From: Candidatus Rokuibacteriota bacterium
Lineage (GTDB): Bacteria; Methylomirabilota; Methylomirabilia; Rokubacteriales; CSP1-6
Direction: 5' to 3'
Length of the DNA: 64,000 bases
NCBI GenBank assembly: GCA_003220495.1
Contig: QHSP01000030.1
Coordinates: 15,191-79,190 of the forward strand
The notes beneath the pieces were generated by a model. That model searched no databases. It was given only the letters and a program-made list of their open reading frames with translations, and was not told the DNA's origin. Shown here piece after piece: positions 25,641-58,231 of the stretch. Each line of letters begins with the position of its first letter. Positions within the stretch are counted from its first letter, which is position 1. Position numbers and translations under genes: made by a program.

Positions 25641-26834
25641 ATGATTTCGGTGCAGGACGGCCAAAATCAGATCCTCCACCAGCTCGCCGAATCGACACCT
25701 CCCGAGGTCGTCGCCGTCACGCGGGCGCGCGATCGCGTGCTCGCCGAGGATCTGCACGCGCCCTTTGACGTGCCGCCGGCGGACAACTCGGCCGTCGACG
25801 GCTACGCGGTCGCGAGCGACGATGTGCCGGCGGCGAAGACGCGCGAGCTCGACGTGGTCGCCGAGATCATGGCCGGCGCGATGTACGCCGGCACCGTGGC
25901 GCCGGGTCAGACTGTGCGCATCATGACCGGCGCGCCGATGCCACGCGGCGCCGACACGGTCTACCCCCAGGAAGTGGTCGAGCGTCGCGGCGACCGTCTG
26001 CGCGTCGGTCCCATCCCGAAGGGATCCAACGTGAGGCAGCGCGGCGAGGACATCCAGGCCGGGACGGTCGCCCTCGAGCGCGGAACGGTCTTGAGGCCGC
26101 AGGAGCTCGGGCTCATCACCTCGCTCGGTCAGTGGCAGGTGCTCGTCCATCGCCGGCCGCGGGTCGCGCTCTTGTCGACTGGCGACGAGGTCGTCGAGCC
26201 CGGCACGCCGCGGAAGGCCGGGCAGATCTACGACGCCAACCGCTTCACCCTGCGCGGCTCGATCGAGCAGTGCGGCGGCGAGGTCATCGATCTCGGCATC
26301 GTGGCCGACGTGCGCGACGAGCTCCGCGCCCGCCTGCTCGAGGCGGCCGAGGTCGGCGACATGGTCGTCACGTCGGGCGGCGTCTCGGTCGGCGCGCTCG
26401 ATCTCGTGAAAGACGTACTCGGCGAGATCGGCGCGATCGACTTCTGGCAGGTCGCGATGCAGCCCGGACGTCCGCTCGCCTTCGGGCGGGTCCGCTCGGC
26501 GCACTTCTTCGGCCTGCCCGGCAATCCGGTTGCCTCGATGCTCGCGTTCATGCTCTTCGTCCGCCCGGCCATCTACAAGCTGGGCGGCCGCCGCCGCCTC
26601 TTCCCCGAGACCGCCGAGGCGGTCGCCGTCGAGGCCATGAGCAAGAAGAAGGGCCGCCGCGAGTTCAAGCGTGGCGTCGTGCGGTGGCAGAACGGCCGCT
26701 GGGAAGCGCGGACCACGGGCCCGCAGGGTTCCGGTATCCTCTCCTCGATGGCGGCGGGCAATTGCCTCATCGTGCTCGACGAGGACCGGGGCGACGTGGC
26801 GGTCGGGGACACCGTCCTCGTCGAGCCGTTTTGA
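25641..26834 (+). CDS. moeA: MoeA, molybdopterin molybdenumtransferase
   Basis: Inserts molybdenum into adenylated molybdopterin to make active Mo-cofactor. The 397-aa length is normal. Motifs are PPADNSAVDGYAV, the MTGAPMPRGADTVYPQE loop, RGEDI, the MoCF-like region with STGDEVVEPG, VTSGGVSVG, and the C-terminal domain IV with GRPLAFG and GLPGNPVASM. The ATG at 25641 sits 6 bases after a perfect TATAAT, so it is read from a leaderless mRNA. The stop shares a base with the tldD-like gene start (TGATG), giving coupling into the downstream run. Confidence 0.92.
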   Translation: MISVQDGQNQILHQLAESTPPEVVAVTRARDRVLAEDLHAPFDVPPADNSAVDGYAVASDDVPAAKTRELDVVAEIMAGAMYAGTVAPGQTVRIMTGAPMPRGADTVYPQEVVERRGDRLRVGPIPKGSNVRQRGEDIQAGTVALERGTVLRPQELGLITSLGQWQVLVHRRPRVALLSTGDEVVEPGTPRKAGQIYDANRFTLRGSIEQCGGEVIDLGIVADVRDELRARLLEAAEVGDMVVTSGGVSVGALDLVKDVLGEIGAIDFWQVAMQPGRPLAFGRVRSAHFFGLPGNPVASMLAFMLFVRPAIYKLGGRRRLFPETAEAVAVEAMSKKKGRREFKRGVVRWQNGRWEARTTGPQGSGILSSMAAGNCLIVLDEDRGDVAVGDTVLVEPF

Positions 26835-28396
26835 TGACTCGCGTCTCCGTCGATCTCATCGATACCGTCGCGCCGATGGTCGAGACCCGCGTGCGCGAAG
26901 CGGCGCGGCGACTGCCGCACCTCCGCTACGCCGATCTCCGCCTCGAGGTGACCGAGGCCAAGGGCGCCGGGTCGGAGAACGGCACGCCCAAGTTCTCGGG
27001 CGACGACTACGGCCTGGCGCTCGGCGCCCGCGTTCTCGCGGGGGACCGGATGATCGCGCCGGGCTACGTCGGCCAGACGCTGGGCACCGCCGACCTCGCC
27101 AACCTCGACCGGATCGTGCGCGAGGCGCTCGAGCGGGCCTACCGGCGCGCGATGGTGAACGGCGAGATGAAGGCCGACGCGCGGGAGAAGTTCGGGCCAC
27201 TGGGCGAGCCGCTGGCCGACACGCGTCTGCACCCGATCGAGGTCAGGCAGGACACCATTCCGGCCGTCTATCGCGTCGATCCGCGCACGATGGTGCTCGC
27301 CGAGATGGTGCGGTACTCGACCGACGTCTCGCGCCAGGTCGCCGCCGTCGACGCGGGCGTCAAGTACAACTACGTCGGAACGATGACCGAGCTCTCGCGC
27401 GAGCTCTTCGTGTCGAGCGAGGGCGCGCGGATCGACCAGTCGTTCGCGCTGACCCTGGGCACCTGCTCGGTCGTCACCGTCGACGGCGAGGTGAGTCAAG
27501 ATCTCTACGACGCGCTCGGCCACCAGCGCGGCTGGGAGATCCTCCTCGACGGCGTCGACGAGCAGGCGCTGCGCTTCCCGGCTTTTCGCGACTTCGCGGT
27601 GAGTCTCGCGCGCGAGGGCGTGGCGCTCGCCGCCGCCCCGGTGCTGCCGACCTCGGACCGCGAGGTGGTCGTGGTCACCGACCCGCACTACAACACGCTC
27701 GTGTCCCACGAGATCATCGGCCACCCGGTCGAGCTCGACCGGGCGCTCAAGATGGAGACGGCCTACGCCGGACGGTCCTGGCTCCTCGGCGGGCTCACCG
27801 AGCATCAGGTCGGACGGCGCGTGGCCTCGCCGCTCGTGACCGCGTACTCGGACCCGGCGCTGCCGGGGTTCGGCCACTACAAGTACGACCACGAGGGCAC
27901 GCCGGCGCGCCGGGTCGTCCACATCGACCGCGGGATCTTCCGCGGCTTCATGAACAGCCGACAGACCGCGGCGATCTTCGGCGGCGAGCCCAACGGCCAC
28001 TGGAAGGCGACCGACGCCTCGCTGGTCCCGCTGATCAGGATGTCGAACACCGTCTTCGACGCGGGGACGCGCCCGGCCGACGACATCGTGAAGGAGGTCG
28101 ACCACGGCTACTACGTGGCCGGCCACCGCACGCCCTCGATCGCCGAGAGCCGCGAGAACTTCCGCATCTCCGCGCGCGGCGTCTACGAGATCCGGAACGG
28201 CGAGCTCGGGCGGCTCTACCGCGACGGCGGCATCGCCGCGGACTCGCGCGACTACCTCATGAACGTCGACGCCGTCGGCTCGGACTTCCGGCTGTACCCG
28301 ATCCCGAACTGCGGCAAAGGCCAACCGATGCAGACCAAGCGGCTGGGCAACGGGGGTCCGACGATGCGGACCCGCGCGCGGGTGATCGGGGGCTAG
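26834..28396 (+). CDS. TldD-like metallopeptidase (first TldD/TldE pair)
   Basis: A 520-aa TldD/PmbA-family zinc metallopeptidase subunit. The zinc motif HExxxH is HEIIGH, about residue 296-301, and the third ligand Cys is probably that in PIPNCGKGQ near the C-terminus. In the family, TldD is catalytic and works as a heterodimer with TldE on unfolded peptides or leader peptides. This one is longer and more divergent than the canonical tldD at 47425, including an EHQVGRRVASPLVTAYSDP segment. It is separated from its TldE partner by a small exported rhodanese gene, an unusual arrangement. Confidence 0.85.
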   Translation: MTRVSVDLIDTVAPMVETRVREAARRLPHLRYADLRLEVTEAKGAGSENGTPKFSGDDYGLALGARVLAGDRMIAPGYVGQTLGTADLANLDRIVREALERAYRRAMVNGEMKADAREKFGPLGEPLADTRLHPIEVRQDTIPAVYRVDPRTMVLAEMVRYSTDVSRQVAAVDAGVKYNYVGTMTELSRELFVSSEGARIDQSFALTLGTCSVVTVDGEVSQDLYDALGHQRGWEILLDGVDEQALRFPAFRDFAVSLAREGVALAAAPVLPTSDREVVVVTDPHYNTLVSHEIIGHPVELDRALKMETAYAGRSWLLGGLTEHQVGRRVASPLVTAYSDPALPGFGHYKYDHEGTPARRVVHIDRGIFRGFMNSRQTAAIFGGEPNGHWKATDASLVPLIRMSNTVFDAGTRPADDIVKEVDHGYYVAGHRTPSIAESRENFRISARGVYEIRNGELGRLYRDGGIAADSRDYLMNVDAVGSDFRLYPIPNCGKGQPMQTKRLGNGGPTMRTRARVIGG

Positions 28397-28398
28397 AC

Positions 28399-28821
28399 GT
28401 GCGGGGCGCGCTGATCGTCGTCGTGACGGCCGGAGTTCTGTTCGCCAGCGCCGCGCCCGCGGCGCCGCCCGAGTACCCCGTGAGCTTCATCAAGGTCGAC
28501 GAGCTCAAGCGCTTCCTCGACCGCGGCACCAGGGCGGACATCATCGACGTCCGGCACTGGGAGCAATATGCCGAGAGTCACATCAGGGGCGCCCGCTCCA
28601 TGCCGCTCCGTGTCGTCGCCGACCGCGCTCCCGAGATCTCCAAGACAGACCTGGTAGTCTTTTATTGAACGTGCCCGCACGCGCTGTCCCGTGGGGCCAG
28701 CGACATTCTGTACACGCTCGGGTGGCGGAATCATCGCGTGCTCGAGGAAGGGCTGCCCGGGTGGATGGACAAGGGCTATCCCGTCGACGGGCGGAACCCG
28801 AACGCGCCGCCCGGGCACTGA
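28399..28821 (+). CDS. Exported rhodanese, candidate selenoprotein with in-frame TGA
   Basis: Rhodanese-fold sulfurtransferase. A GTG at 28399 opens a signal peptide (MRGALIVVVTAGVLFASAA, then AxA-type site) and a rhodanese N-terminal half (IDVRHWEQYAESHIRGARSM). After VVFY the frame meets TGA at 28666-28668, where related proteins carry the catalytic Cys of the YCxCP motif. The same frame continues as TCPHALS, LGWRNHRVLEEGLPGW and GYPVDG to a second TGA at 28819, seven bases before the next ATG. Third-position GC remains high beyond the first TGA. Read through, the protein is 140 residues with residue 90 as selenocysteine. A recent Cys-to-stop mutation is the alternative; then the product is an 89-aa fragment. 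Confidence 0.7.
28682..28702 (+). promoter_or_regulatory. Candidate bacterial SECIS hairpin
   Basis: Fourteen bases after the in-frame TGA begins a 21-nt hairpin: CGCTG (28682-28686) pairs with CAGCG (28698-28702), then a U/C mismatch (28687, 28697), then CCC pairs with GGG, leaving the loop GUG (28691-28693). There are 22 bases between TGA and loop. From memory, the bacterial SECIS pattern is a short 3-bp upper stem, a small apical loop with G at position one or two, and a UGA-to-loop distance of about 16-37 nt; this hairpin meets all three. GC-rich DNA forms hairpins easily, so it is supporting evidence only. Confidence 0.5.
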
Positions 28822-28828
28822 ACCGACG

Positions 28829-30388
28829 ATGAGGACGGTCGACGATCTGGCACGAGCGAGCGAAGAGGCGCTGGCGCTCGTCGGGCGTCAGCCGGACGTC
28901 CGCGAGGCCGAGGTGTTCGTGTCCGCGAACTCCGCGGTGCTGACCCGGCTCAATTACACCTCCCACATTCCCTGCAACGGCGTCGAGGAGCCCAAGTCGA
29001 CCGAGTCCTACGGCCTCGGCATCCAGGCGGTCTTCGACACGCCGGAGGGCCGGCGGATCGGCTTCGGGAGCGAGCCGAGCGATCTCTCGCTCGCCGGCGC
29101 CGAGCGCGCGCTGATCAAGGCGCGCCGGGCCGCCGTCGCCGACCCGGAGTTCGTCTCGCTCCCCTCGCCCACGGGCGCGGCGCGCACGCTGGCCGACTAC
29201 CACGATCCGCGACTCATGGCGCTCGACGACGCGGGGCTCGTGGAGGCCGGCTGGAAGATCACCGGCGGCGCGCTGCGAACGTTCAGCGCCTCGGGGCGGC
29301 TGGCCGAGCTCGCGCAGGACGACGACGGCCTGCGGCGGCTCGGCCTCATCCTCGGTGGCGACGTCACGATTTTGCGGGAGCGGATGGCGATCGCCTCGAC
29401 CACGATGCCGCGCGCCCAGACCGACGAGACGTCGCTGATCACCGCGTTCGCGACCGCGATGGTCGAGACGCGTGGGGCCAAAGGCTCGGGGGCGTCCACC
29501 GGCACCCGGCTCGACCACTTCACCGACGAGGCGGGCGTGGAGGCCGCGCAGAACGCCATCAACGCGATCGGCGGCGAGCGCGTGCCGTCGGGCACCTACA
29601 CCGTCATCTTCGGTCGCCAGCCCGTGGCAGATTTGCTGAACAACATCGTGATCCCCGCGTGCACCGCGAGCTCCTTCTACTCGTCGAGCACCCCGTTCCT
29701 CGGCAAGCTCGGCCGCGCCGTGGCCTCGCCGCGTCTGCACCTCTACGACGACGGCGCGCGGCCCGGCTTCATGGGGTCGAAGGGGATCACGTGCGAAGGG
29801 CTGCCGACCGGCCGGACCGACCTGATCAAGCGCGGCGTCCTCGTCGGCTGTCTCTCGAACTGGTACGAGACCCAGCGCCTGCTCCGCGACCCGGCCCTCG
29901 GCGAAAAGCTCGGCGCCGTCGGCGCCGCCGCCGAAGCGGCCCTCGCGCCGCGCAACGGCTTTCGCTTCGGCTCCGGCGGCGGCCGGCAGTTCGACAGCGC
30001 GCCCGGTGTGGCCGCCTCGAACGTCGTGCTCGAGGGCGACGAGACGGTCGCGCTCGATGAGCTGATGCGCCGGGTCGGCGACGGCCTCTACGTCGGGCGC
30101 ATCTGGTACACCTATCCGATCAACGGACTGCGCGCGGGTGATTTCACCTGTACCGTCGTCGCCGATTCCTATATCATTCGCGACGGGCGGATCGCCACGC
30201 CGCTCAAGGCCAACGCGATCCGGATCAACGACAACATCGCCACGTTCCTGAACAACGTCACCGGGATCACCAAGGACGTGAAGGGCACGATCGTCTGGGC
30301 CGCGGACGAGGTCGTGTACGCGCCCGAGGTCGCCGTCACCGGCGTCCGAGTCGACGAAATCGCGGGATTCATGGAGGAGCTCGACTGA
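28829..30388 (+). CDS. TldE/PmbA-like partner subunit (first pair)
   Basis: A 519-aa TldD/PmbA-family protein without the HExxxH motif, expected to be the non-catalytic TldE-type partner of the TldD-like protein two genes upstream. Family features include the N-terminal DVREAEVFVS and TESYGLGIQAVF strands, the internal IFGRQPVADLLNNIVIPAC stretch, and the C-terminal EGDETVALDELM and DGRIATPLKANAIRINDNI. Its stop overlaps the transketolase start by one base (TGATG), so both are in one unit with moeA, tldD and the rhodanese. Confidence 0.82.
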   Translation: MRTVDDLARASEEALALVGRQPDVREAEVFVSANSAVLTRLNYTSHIPCNGVEEPKSTESYGLGIQAVFDTPEGRRIGFGSEPSDLSLAGAERALIKARRAAVADPEFVSLPSPTGAARTLADYHDPRLMALDDAGLVEAGWKITGGALRTFSASGRLAELAQDDDGLRRLGLILGGDVTILRERMAIASTTMPRAQTDETSLITAFATAMVETRGAKGSGASTGTRLDHFTDEAGVEAAQNAINAIGGERVPSGTYTVIFGRQPVADLLNNIVIPACTASSFYSSSTPFLGKLGRAVASPRLHLYDDGARPGFMGSKGITCEGLPTGRTDLIKRGVLVGCLSNWYETQRLLRDPALGEKLGAVGAAAEAALAPRNGFRFGSGGGRQFDSAPGVAASNVVLEGDETVALDELMRRVGDGLYVGRIWYTYPINGLRAGDFTCTVVADSYIIRDGRIATPLKANAIRINDNIATFLNNVTGITKDVKGTIVWAADEVVYAPEVAVTGVRVDEIAGFMEELD

Positions 30389-31302
30389 TGGCTGAAGTCC
30401 GTCTCGAGTCGATCGCGCGCGAGTGTCGTGTTCAGATCCTCCGCATGCTCGCCCACGCGGGCTCGGGGCATCCCGGCGGCTCCCTCTCCGTGATCGACAT
30501 CCTCACCACGCTGTTCTTCGGACGTCTGCGCTACGACGCCAAGCGGCCGGACTGGCCGGACCGCGACCGCGTCGTGCTCTCGAAGGGCCACGCGGTCCCG
30601 GCCCTCTATGCCGTGCTCGCGAAGGCCGGGTACTTCCCGGAGAAGTCGCTGATCACCTTGCGCAAGCTCGGCTCGCCGCTCCAGGGCCATCCGGATCGGA
30701 CGATGCTCCCGGGAATCGAGGCCGCCACGGGCTCGCTCGGCCAGGGGCTCTCGATCTCGCTCGGTCTGTCGCTCGGCCTCAAGCTCGCCGGCTCCAGCGC
30801 CCGCGTCTACTGCGTGCTCGGCGACGGCGAGACCCAGGAGGGCCAGGTGTGGGAGGCCGCGATGGCGGCGCCGAAGCTCGGTCAGCCCGACCACGCGCTC
30901 GACAACCTCGTGGTCATCCTCGACTACAACAAGATCCAGCTCGACAACTTCGTGAAGAAGGTGCTCGACATCGAGCCGGTCACTGCCAAGTGGCAGTCGT
31001 TCGGCTGGCCCGTCCTCGAGATCGACGGCCACGACATCGCGCAGATCACGAAGGCGCTCGATCAAGCCGAGGCGACCACGGGCGGGCCGACCTTCATCGT
31101 GGCGCACACGGTGAAGGGCAAGGGCGTGTCGTTCATGGAGAACGACCCGGAGTGGCACGGCAAGGCCCCGAAGCCCGCGGAAGCGATCAAGGCGATCCGC
31201 GAAGTGCTCGGGATCACGGAGGGCGCCTGGGAAGAGTACTTGAAGACCGATTCGTCGACGCGGGCGATCGTGGACGAGCTCGCCGCCCTGGAGAAGAAGT
31301 GA
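30388..31302 (+). CDS. Transketolase, N-terminal (ThDP-binding) subunit
   Basis: First half of a split transketolase, 304 aa. It carries the thiamine diphosphate-binding region GDGETQEGQVWEAAM followed by LDYNKIQLDN, and the early active-site histidines in GSGHPGGSLS and SKGHAVPALY. Transketolases move two-carbon units in the pentose phosphate pathway. Split versions are common in archaea and many deep bacterial lineages. The second half follows with a TGATG overlap. It needs ThDP, which the TPP-controlled thi operon later in the window would help supply. Confidence 0.92.
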   Translation: MAEVRLESIARECRVQILRMLAHAGSGHPGGSLSVIDILTTLFFGRLRYDAKRPDWPDRDRVVLSKGHAVPALYAVLAKAGYFPEKSLITLRKLGSPLQGHPDRTMLPGIEAATGSLGQGLSISLGLSLGLKLAGSSARVYCVLGDGETQEGQVWEAAMAAPKLGQPDHALDNLVVILDYNKIQLDNFVKKVLDIEPVTAKWQSFGWPVLEIDGHDIAQITKALDQAEATTGGPTFIVAHTVKGKGVSFMENDPEWHGKAPKPAEAIKAIREVLGITEGAWEEYLKTDSSTRAIVDELAALEKK

Positions 31303-32228
31303 TGCCGGCCAAGGCCAGTCGCGCCGCATTCGGCGAAGCCCTCCTCGATCTGGGCGCGCGCGACGAGCGCATCGTCACGCTCGATGCCGACCTGTCGAAG
31401 TCGACCATGACCGGGAACTTCGCGAAGAAGTATCCGGCGCGGGCGTTCAATCTGGGCATCGCGGAGTCGAACATGATCGGCGTCGGCGCCGGCCTCGCGC
31501 TCACCGGCCGCATCCCGTTCGCCTGCTCGTTCGCGTGCTTCATCGCGGGCCGTTTCGAGACCATCCGCATCTCGGTCGCCTACACCAACGCGAATCTGAA
31601 GATCGTCGGGACCCACTCCGGCATCGCGATCGGCGAGGACGGCTACAGCCAGATGGGGCTCGAGGACGTCGCCTGCATCCGCTCGCTCCCGAACATCGGC
31701 ATCATCCAGCCGGCCGACGAGATCGAGACCAAGCAGGCCATCGCCTACGCGGTCGAGCACCAGGGGCCGCTCTATCTCAGGCTCACGCGGCAAAGCCTCG
31801 AGCCCGTCTGCCCGCCGGACTATCGCTTCCAGTACGGCCGCTGGCTCGTCCTCCGTAAAGGCCACGACGTGACCTTGATCGGCTCGGGCGGGCCGCTGTT
31901 CAACTGCCTCGAGGCCGCCAAGCGCCTGGAGCCCGACGGGATCTCGGCCGAGGTGATCAACGCCGCGTGCATCAAGCCGCTGGACGAAGAGCTGCTGGTC
32001 CAGTCAGCGGGAAAGACCGGCCACGTCGTGACCGTGGAGGACCACACGGTCTCCGGCGGGCTGGGCGGCGCGGTGGCCGAGCGGCTCGGGGACCTCCTGC
32101 CGACGCCGATCAAGCGCCTGGGTGTCCACGGATTCGGTGAGTCGGGCGATCAGAAGGGTCTCTACGCCAAGCATGGTCTCGATCCGGCCGGGATCGCCGC
32201 GAGCGTGAAGAAGTTCCTGCACCGCTGA
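31302..32228 (+). CDS. Transketolase, C-terminal (pyrimidine-binding) subunit
   Basis: Second half of the split transketolase, 308 aa. It has the Pyr domain (VTLDADLSKSTM, FNLGIAESNMIGVGAGLAL with the activating Glu, THSGIAIGEDGYSQMGLED) and the C-terminal domain (VTVEDHTVSGGLGGAVAE). Those are the residues that complete the ThDP site with the N-terminal subunit. DXP synthase is excluded by the split arrangement and the GIAESNMIG type. The downstream Mug gene begins within its stop region. Confidence 0.92.
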   Translation: MPAKASRAAFGEALLDLGARDERIVTLDADLSKSTMTGNFAKKYPARAFNLGIAESNMIGVGAGLALTGRIPFACSFACFIAGRFETIRISVAYTNANLKIVGTHSGIAIGEDGYSQMGLEDVACIRSLPNIGIIQPADEIETKQAIAYAVEHQGPLYLRLTRQSLEPVCPPDYRFQYGRWLVLRKGHDVTLIGSGGPLFNCLEAAKRLEPDGISAEVINAACIKPLDEELLVQSAGKTGHVVTVEDHTVSGGLGGAVAERLGDLLPTPIKRLGVHGFGESGDQKGLYAKHGLDPAGIAASVKKFLHR

Positions 32229-58123: not shown

Positions 58124-58137
58124 CTCTCGTCTCCCGC

Positions 58138-58217
58138 CGTGTTCCCTTCGCTGGAATTACCCAGATCAGGTTCGAGGGGTCCCGGGCCGCACCCGGTTCT
58201 CAGGAATCCTCCCCCCA
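58138..58217 (-). promoter_or_regulatory. TPP riboswitch (THI element)
   Basis: The aptamer contains CTGAGA (58198-58203), GAACCTGATCTGG (around 58161-58173) and the CAGCGAAGGGAAC end (58141-58153) in the canonical order. It binds thiamine diphosphate and should favour the downstream terminator, lowering thiS-thiG-thiE-thiO expression when thiamine is plentiful. Confidence 0.95.
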
Positions 58218-58231
58218 CGACGTCAGAGCGG

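Follow-up and report, generated by a model that had tools for sequence, protein, structure and literature searches.

A gene at positions 28399-28821 (+ strand) of the window, the 64,000-nucleotide stretch of DNA analysed here, very probably encodes a small single-domain rhodanese in which selenocysteine (Sec), recoded from UGA, occupies the site of the catalytic Cys within a Y-U-x-C-P motif. The gene begins with a GTG start codon, gives a protein of 140 amino acids by read-through, and ends at a terminal TGA (28819-28821), while the in-frame TGA at 28666-28668 (+) corresponds to residue 90 and the TGC at 28672-28674 (+) to Cys92, the second position of the UxC pair. The translation of the frame 28399-28821 reads MRGALIVVVTAGVLFASAAPAAPPEYP...LVVFY-U-TCPHALSRGASDILYTLGWRNHRVLEEGLPGWMDKGYPV...PGH. 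The read-through protein matches the Pfam profile PF00581 (E=7.5e-14, 52.5 bits vs a cutoff of 22.2), and the GTG-start rhodanese with its internal and terminal TGA codons was found at the coordinates given in the original prediction. At the N-terminus, the stretch encoded by 28399-28470 (+) is a hydrophobic leader, MRGALIVVVTAGVLFASAAPAAPP, which hydropathy and an AAPAAPP-like sequence mark as a probable signal peptide. A hydrophobic stretch followed by an AAPAAPP-like sequence is retained in the orthologues, most of which carry an exported-type leader, and the UxC rhodanese is probably exported outside the cytoplasm.

Fold and active site of the UxC rhodanese

An AlphaFold model built from 28 sequences (pLDDT 86.9) displays a rhodanese fold with residue 90 located between the strand 85-89 and the helix 95-107, and the codons past the TGA encode the active-site loop as well as the final strand and helices of the modelled fold. 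The best Foldseek matches of the model are rhodaneses, e.g., BH2092 and Alr3790, and other matches include YgaP and the sulfurtransferase EanB. A profile alignment with solved rhodaneses pairs residue 90 with their loop Cys (YC in 6mxv and 3tp9), which bears out the claim that the TGA lies exactly at the catalytic Cys position. With a profile score above the cutoff, the fold, and a predicted nucleophile, Sec90, at the catalytic-loop position, the protein belongs to the rhodanese superfamily (PF00581).

Sulfurtransferases normally rely on one persulfide-forming Cys (PMC3276061). In the predicted protein, Sec90 would be the first residue of the rhodanese active-site loop, with the invariant Cys92 placed two residues on, and this second thiol makes a redox step plausible. 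It could be speculated that the selenolate of Sec90 attacks an extracytoplasmic sulfane-sulfur donor (persulfide, polysulfide, thiosulfate, or tetrathionate), leading to Enz-Se-S(-), which Cys92 would resolve either by the sulfur being passed on or by the release of sulfide and formation of a Se-S bridge, and that the bridge would then be re-reduced by an electron donor. This mechanism of Sec90 attack and Cys92 resolution, drawn from the family and the motif, is tentative, and we place its chances slightly short of even. A Sec rhodanese may be expected to perform sulfur transfer or sulfane reduction faster, and to be less easily inactivated, than a Cys-only rhodanese. Alternatively, the rhodanese fold may carry a Sec-dependent thiol/disulfide or peroxide reductase instead of a sulfur-handling enzyme, as UxC pairs are present in other predicted redox selenoproteins, including thioredoxin-like Sec.2 (PMC13188914), and probable export would suit an oxidoreductase; yet the fold and the loop are those of sulfurtransferase rhodaneses, making such a reductase a rather unlikely, if credible, alternative.

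Genomic neighbourhood

The UxC gene is located between a tldD-like metallopeptidase gene (26834-28396, +), encoding a PmbA/TldD C-terminal domain and an HEIIGH motif, and a tldE/pmbA-like gene (28829-30388, +). Next in the conserved cluster are genes encoding the N-terminal (30388-31302, +) and C-terminal (31302-32228, +) subunits of transketolase. The TldD/TldE neighbourhood proved to be conserved at the loci inspected, all with the UxC gene between tldD and tldE and most with moeA before and the transketolase subunits after, where the gene order was read from positions, the moeA and tldE queries being off-frame and their identities not meaningful. Flanking genes missing at some loci mostly lie beyond the stretch or contig, or were unmatched by an off-frame query. 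In genomes without the UxC gene, including Methylomirabilota of other families, a correct-frame comparison finds tldD and tldE close together, and none of those examined has a rhodanese between the two genes. The UxC gene thus behaves as an insert that is either present or cleanly absent, with no Cys version in its place in the genome set. One genome (G073; L112, about 580-1500) has an enoyl-CoA hydratase-like gene between tldD and tldE. Elsewhere in the window, a TPP riboswitch (RF00059, 61.4 bits) is found at 58125-58225 (-).

The UxC rhodanese may be functionally linked to TldD/TldE, yet adjacency does not in itself imply such a link: TldD and TldE are cytoplasmic proteins, and the leader of the rhodanese is of the exported type in most orthologues. 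A more specific proposal, in which the protein would be a Sec-specific extracytoplasmic UxC sulfane-sulfur reductase working via a Se-S bridge and functionally coupled, in Rokubacteria, to peptide processing of the TldD/TldE type, appears improbable. Another reading of the locus is that the UGA is recoded, but that its main role would be that of a selenium-dependent switch, where low selenium leads to the short product and alters tldE expression via translational coupling. The gene is indeed flanked by tldD and tldE, and few bases separate the frames, so that termination at the UGA could reduce coupling to tldE. Yet purifying selection acts on the whole protein, whose active-site residues are invariant, and many genomes without the gene keep tldD and tldE adjacent, so that a role mainly as a switch is quite improbable.

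Conservation of the TGA codon and the downstream frame

Orthologues were searched for in 57 genomes in the family of the source genome using a match threshold of E<=1e-20, and 40 of these gave a match. The match in G028 is a Cys paralogue, while the remaining 39 genomes, covering ~20 genera of one Rokubacterial family, provided 38 distinct orthologue sequences. The column of residue 90 is TGA in 38/38, answering in the affirmative whether relatives conserve the codon, and no Cys orthologue was found among the 38 distinct sequences (39 genomes). The original prediction placed the TGA where relatives carry YCxCP, which holds for more distant paralogues but not for the orthologues themselves, as these all have TGA. 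The terminal stop varies among the 38 orthologues (TGA in 27 and TAG in 11) and the internal codon is always TGA; Cys92 is invariant among the aligned orthologues. Apparently the same rhodanese stretch occurs in two genomes assigned to different genera (L080 in G074 and L081 in G079), suggesting a mis-binned contig or a very recent transfer, and L081 was removed as a duplicate.

The frame past the internal TGA has a pN/pS of 0.40 (vs 0.63 upstream), a median pairwise dN/dS of about 0.25-0.29, and differences averaging 0.17, 0.14, and 0.38 at codon positions 1, 2, and 3, respectively. The low dN/dS and the higher variability of the third position indicate that the 40 codons past the TGA form a translated frame under purifying selection. 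These data bear on whether the TGA could be an ordinary stop, leaving an 89-residue truncated rhodanese followed by a decaying remnant or pseudogene. The open reading frame does mechanically end at the TGA, and standard annotation would stop there; yet across the 38 sequences the 40 downstream codons are more conserved than those upstream, no further in-frame stop precedes the conserved C-terminus, and, according to the model, the rhodanese would lose its active-site loop, last strand, and helices. With TGA in 38/38 and purifying selection beyond it, the pseudogene reading was rejected, and termination at this codon is very improbable. Finally, single-nucleotide errors do occur in metagenome-assembled genomes (MAGs), yet an assembly or sequencing error masking a true TGC or TGT at 28666-28668, named in the original prediction as a refutation, was rejected as having a negligible probability, since separate MAGs provide 38 distinct sequences with the identical TGA and a conserved SECIS core tracks it.

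The SECIS hairpin and its core

The predicted bacterial SECIS hairpin is located at 28682-28702 (+) and includes a conserved core, CCCGKGKGGC, at 28688-28697. Its layout is CGCUG, U, CCC, a GUG loop, GGG, C, and CAGCG, resulting in a stem of 5 bp, a U/C mismatch, and 3 bp, with the loop 22 nt from the UGA. The pairing and 22-nt spacing are as first described, and the hairpin folds at -10.9 kcal/mol. The published bSECIS model (PMC13188914) has G in the first two loop positions at 16-37 nt from the UGA, with further limits of MFE <= -7.5 and an upper stem of 4-16 bp. With its GUG loop, its distance of 22 nt, its energy of -10.9 kcal/mol, and its interrupted stem, the hairpin agrees with these constraints, in line with the earlier view that the hairpin fits the bacterial SECIS pattern. 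The folding energy is only modestly better than that of shuffled sequences (z -1.34), and energy by itself (z -0.1 to -1.3) was rejected as unconvincing evidence of a SECIS. RNAalifold on the orthologue alignment prefers another low-energy fold, and roughly half of the orthologues lack the outer pair of the stem. No compensatory changes were found in the hairpin pairs across the orthologue alignment, because the stem sequence is nearly invariant, and covariation is accordingly not claimed as proof of the SECIS.

The evidence for the element instead comes from its nucleotide conservation and position. Synonymous sites in the hairpin codons (+5 to +10) are unusually strongly fixed, with CTG in 38/38, GGG in 36/36, and GCC in 36/38 sequences. 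Against a permutation background of 367 conserved columns (rhodanese gene, tldD, and tldE), sets of five randomly drawn columns were equally fixed in ~4/10,000 draws (permutation p ~4e-4), and the hairpin codons are the lowest such run across the three genes. Searching for CCCGKGKGGC with one mismatch allowed, and counting the distance from the T of the TGA, located the core at exactly +22 nt in 37/37 distinct UxC stretches. The same distance was found in 10/10 CxU paralogues, whose Sec aligns two codons further along the protein, and, measured from the second UGA, in four of six UxU proteins, the other two having the core in the same place with two mismatches. None of the six CxC paralogues has the core. 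As the core remains at +22 nt even though the Sec position shifts, and is missing from CxC, the element tracks the UGA and not the protein sequence. A scan of the source genome for TGA-N19-core gave four occurrences, each within a rhodanese gene (the UxC gene itself and those of the CxU proteins on contigs C71, C105, and C153), while a reversed control pattern gave none.

Selenocysteine machinery

The source genome (5.98 Mb, 98% complete) contains the Sec machinery that the original prediction had proposed to look for, namely selA (591 bits) and selB (357 bits), which share a contig, selD (337 bits), and a tRNA-Sec with a UCA anticodon (69.8 bits). On the comparative evidence, SelB with Sec-tRNA(Sec) very probably decodes the UGA at 28666-28668 as selenocysteine, guided by the hairpin at 28682-28702. 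The selD gene of the source genome (G000:C1:77537-78481, L074) has an in-frame TGA itself, in SCAG-U-ASKMAP, and its product, selenophosphate synthetase, is predicted to be a selenoprotein. No selA match was found in four of the orthologue-carrying genomes (G005, G029, G066, and G078) and no tRNA-Sec match in several; MAG incompleteness is a likely explanation for both.

Relation to known rhodaneses and selenoproteins

Within the phylum, the two active-site positions occur in four states: CxC, CxU, UxU, and UxC. In a midpoint-rooted rhodanese tree of 35 rows, based on a short alignment and with long-branch warnings, UxC is recovered as a single clade (99/98) and shares its side of the tree with CxC (99/97), CxU and UxU being separate from both; this topology is compatible with Sec having been used separately at the two positions. 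The source genome also encodes three CxU rhodanese selenoproteins with the same SECIS core (L049 on C71, L050 on C105, and L140 on C153), while Y-U-x-U-P rhodaneses with two selenocysteines are found in other families of the phylum (L058, L060, L061, L062, L125, and L126). The two UGAs of the UxU rhodaneses appear to share a single SECIS core, located 22 nt from the second of them. Other candidates for rhodaneses with an internal TGA were rejected, as L056 and L057 are Cys proteins in which the terminal stop had been run over, and L051 and L053 are of a distinct FYCNG type.

Rokubacteria are uncultured bacteria from soil and groundwater; the UxC selenoprotein group occurs in the majority of genomes in a single Rokubacterial family, and standard annotation is expected to cut its members off at residue 89. 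The occurrence of CxC, CxU, UxU, and UxC in one phylum, with the SECIS core keeping its 22-nt distance from the UGA even when Sec is moved by two codons, amounts to a natural experiment on the advantage of Sec over Cys at either position, which could be probed in a small protein by exchanging U and C at the two sites.

Rhodanese-like selenoproteins have already been surveyed, as the original prediction noted, but in other motif forms: the 2026 prokaryotic selenoproteome catalogue (PMC13188914) includes the rhodanese forms UxxS, UxxG, CxU, UxxG, and UxxxxU. A UxC rhodanese is missing from this catalogue, which has UxC for other families only, and may have been described elsewhere earlier; rhodanese is unmentioned in the main text of deep-Sep (PMC12013277). 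The best NCBIfam match of the UxC protein is NF041203 (LYCAU, "rhodanese form 3", CxU), which is matched by all 28 aligned members and shares the fold and the same two active-site positions, and the CxU paralogues of the phylum have the SECIS core at the same UGA distance as the UxC genes. However, NF041203 has Sec at the second position, whereas Sec is predicted first in all 38 UxC orthologues; the UxC protein, at 46.8 bits, falls far short of the 115-bit family cutoff and so lies outside this family, and the CxU proteins of the phylum lie on a separate side of the tree. Rhodanese forms 1, 2, and 4 (UxxS and UxxG; PMC13188914) are likewise rhodanese-domain selenoproteins in which, to judge from the motifs, Sec would occupy the first active-site position, yet the listed motifs are without a Cys at +2, which at the motif level sets these forms apart from UxC. 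The TsoB rhodanese/DsbD-fusion (NF045694, UxxxxU) is also a selenoprotein with a rhodanese-like part, but its model is a fusion of 572 positions with two Sec, against which the UxC protein scores 24 bits vs a cutoff of 805. The single-domain rhodaneses PspE, YgaP, and Alr3790 share the fold and the catalytic-loop position with the UxC protein, and have the catalytic Cys where the UxC protein has its predicted Sec. While an earlier description is possible, UxC is thus, as predicted from the genes, a new active-site arrangement within the known rhodanese selenoproteins.
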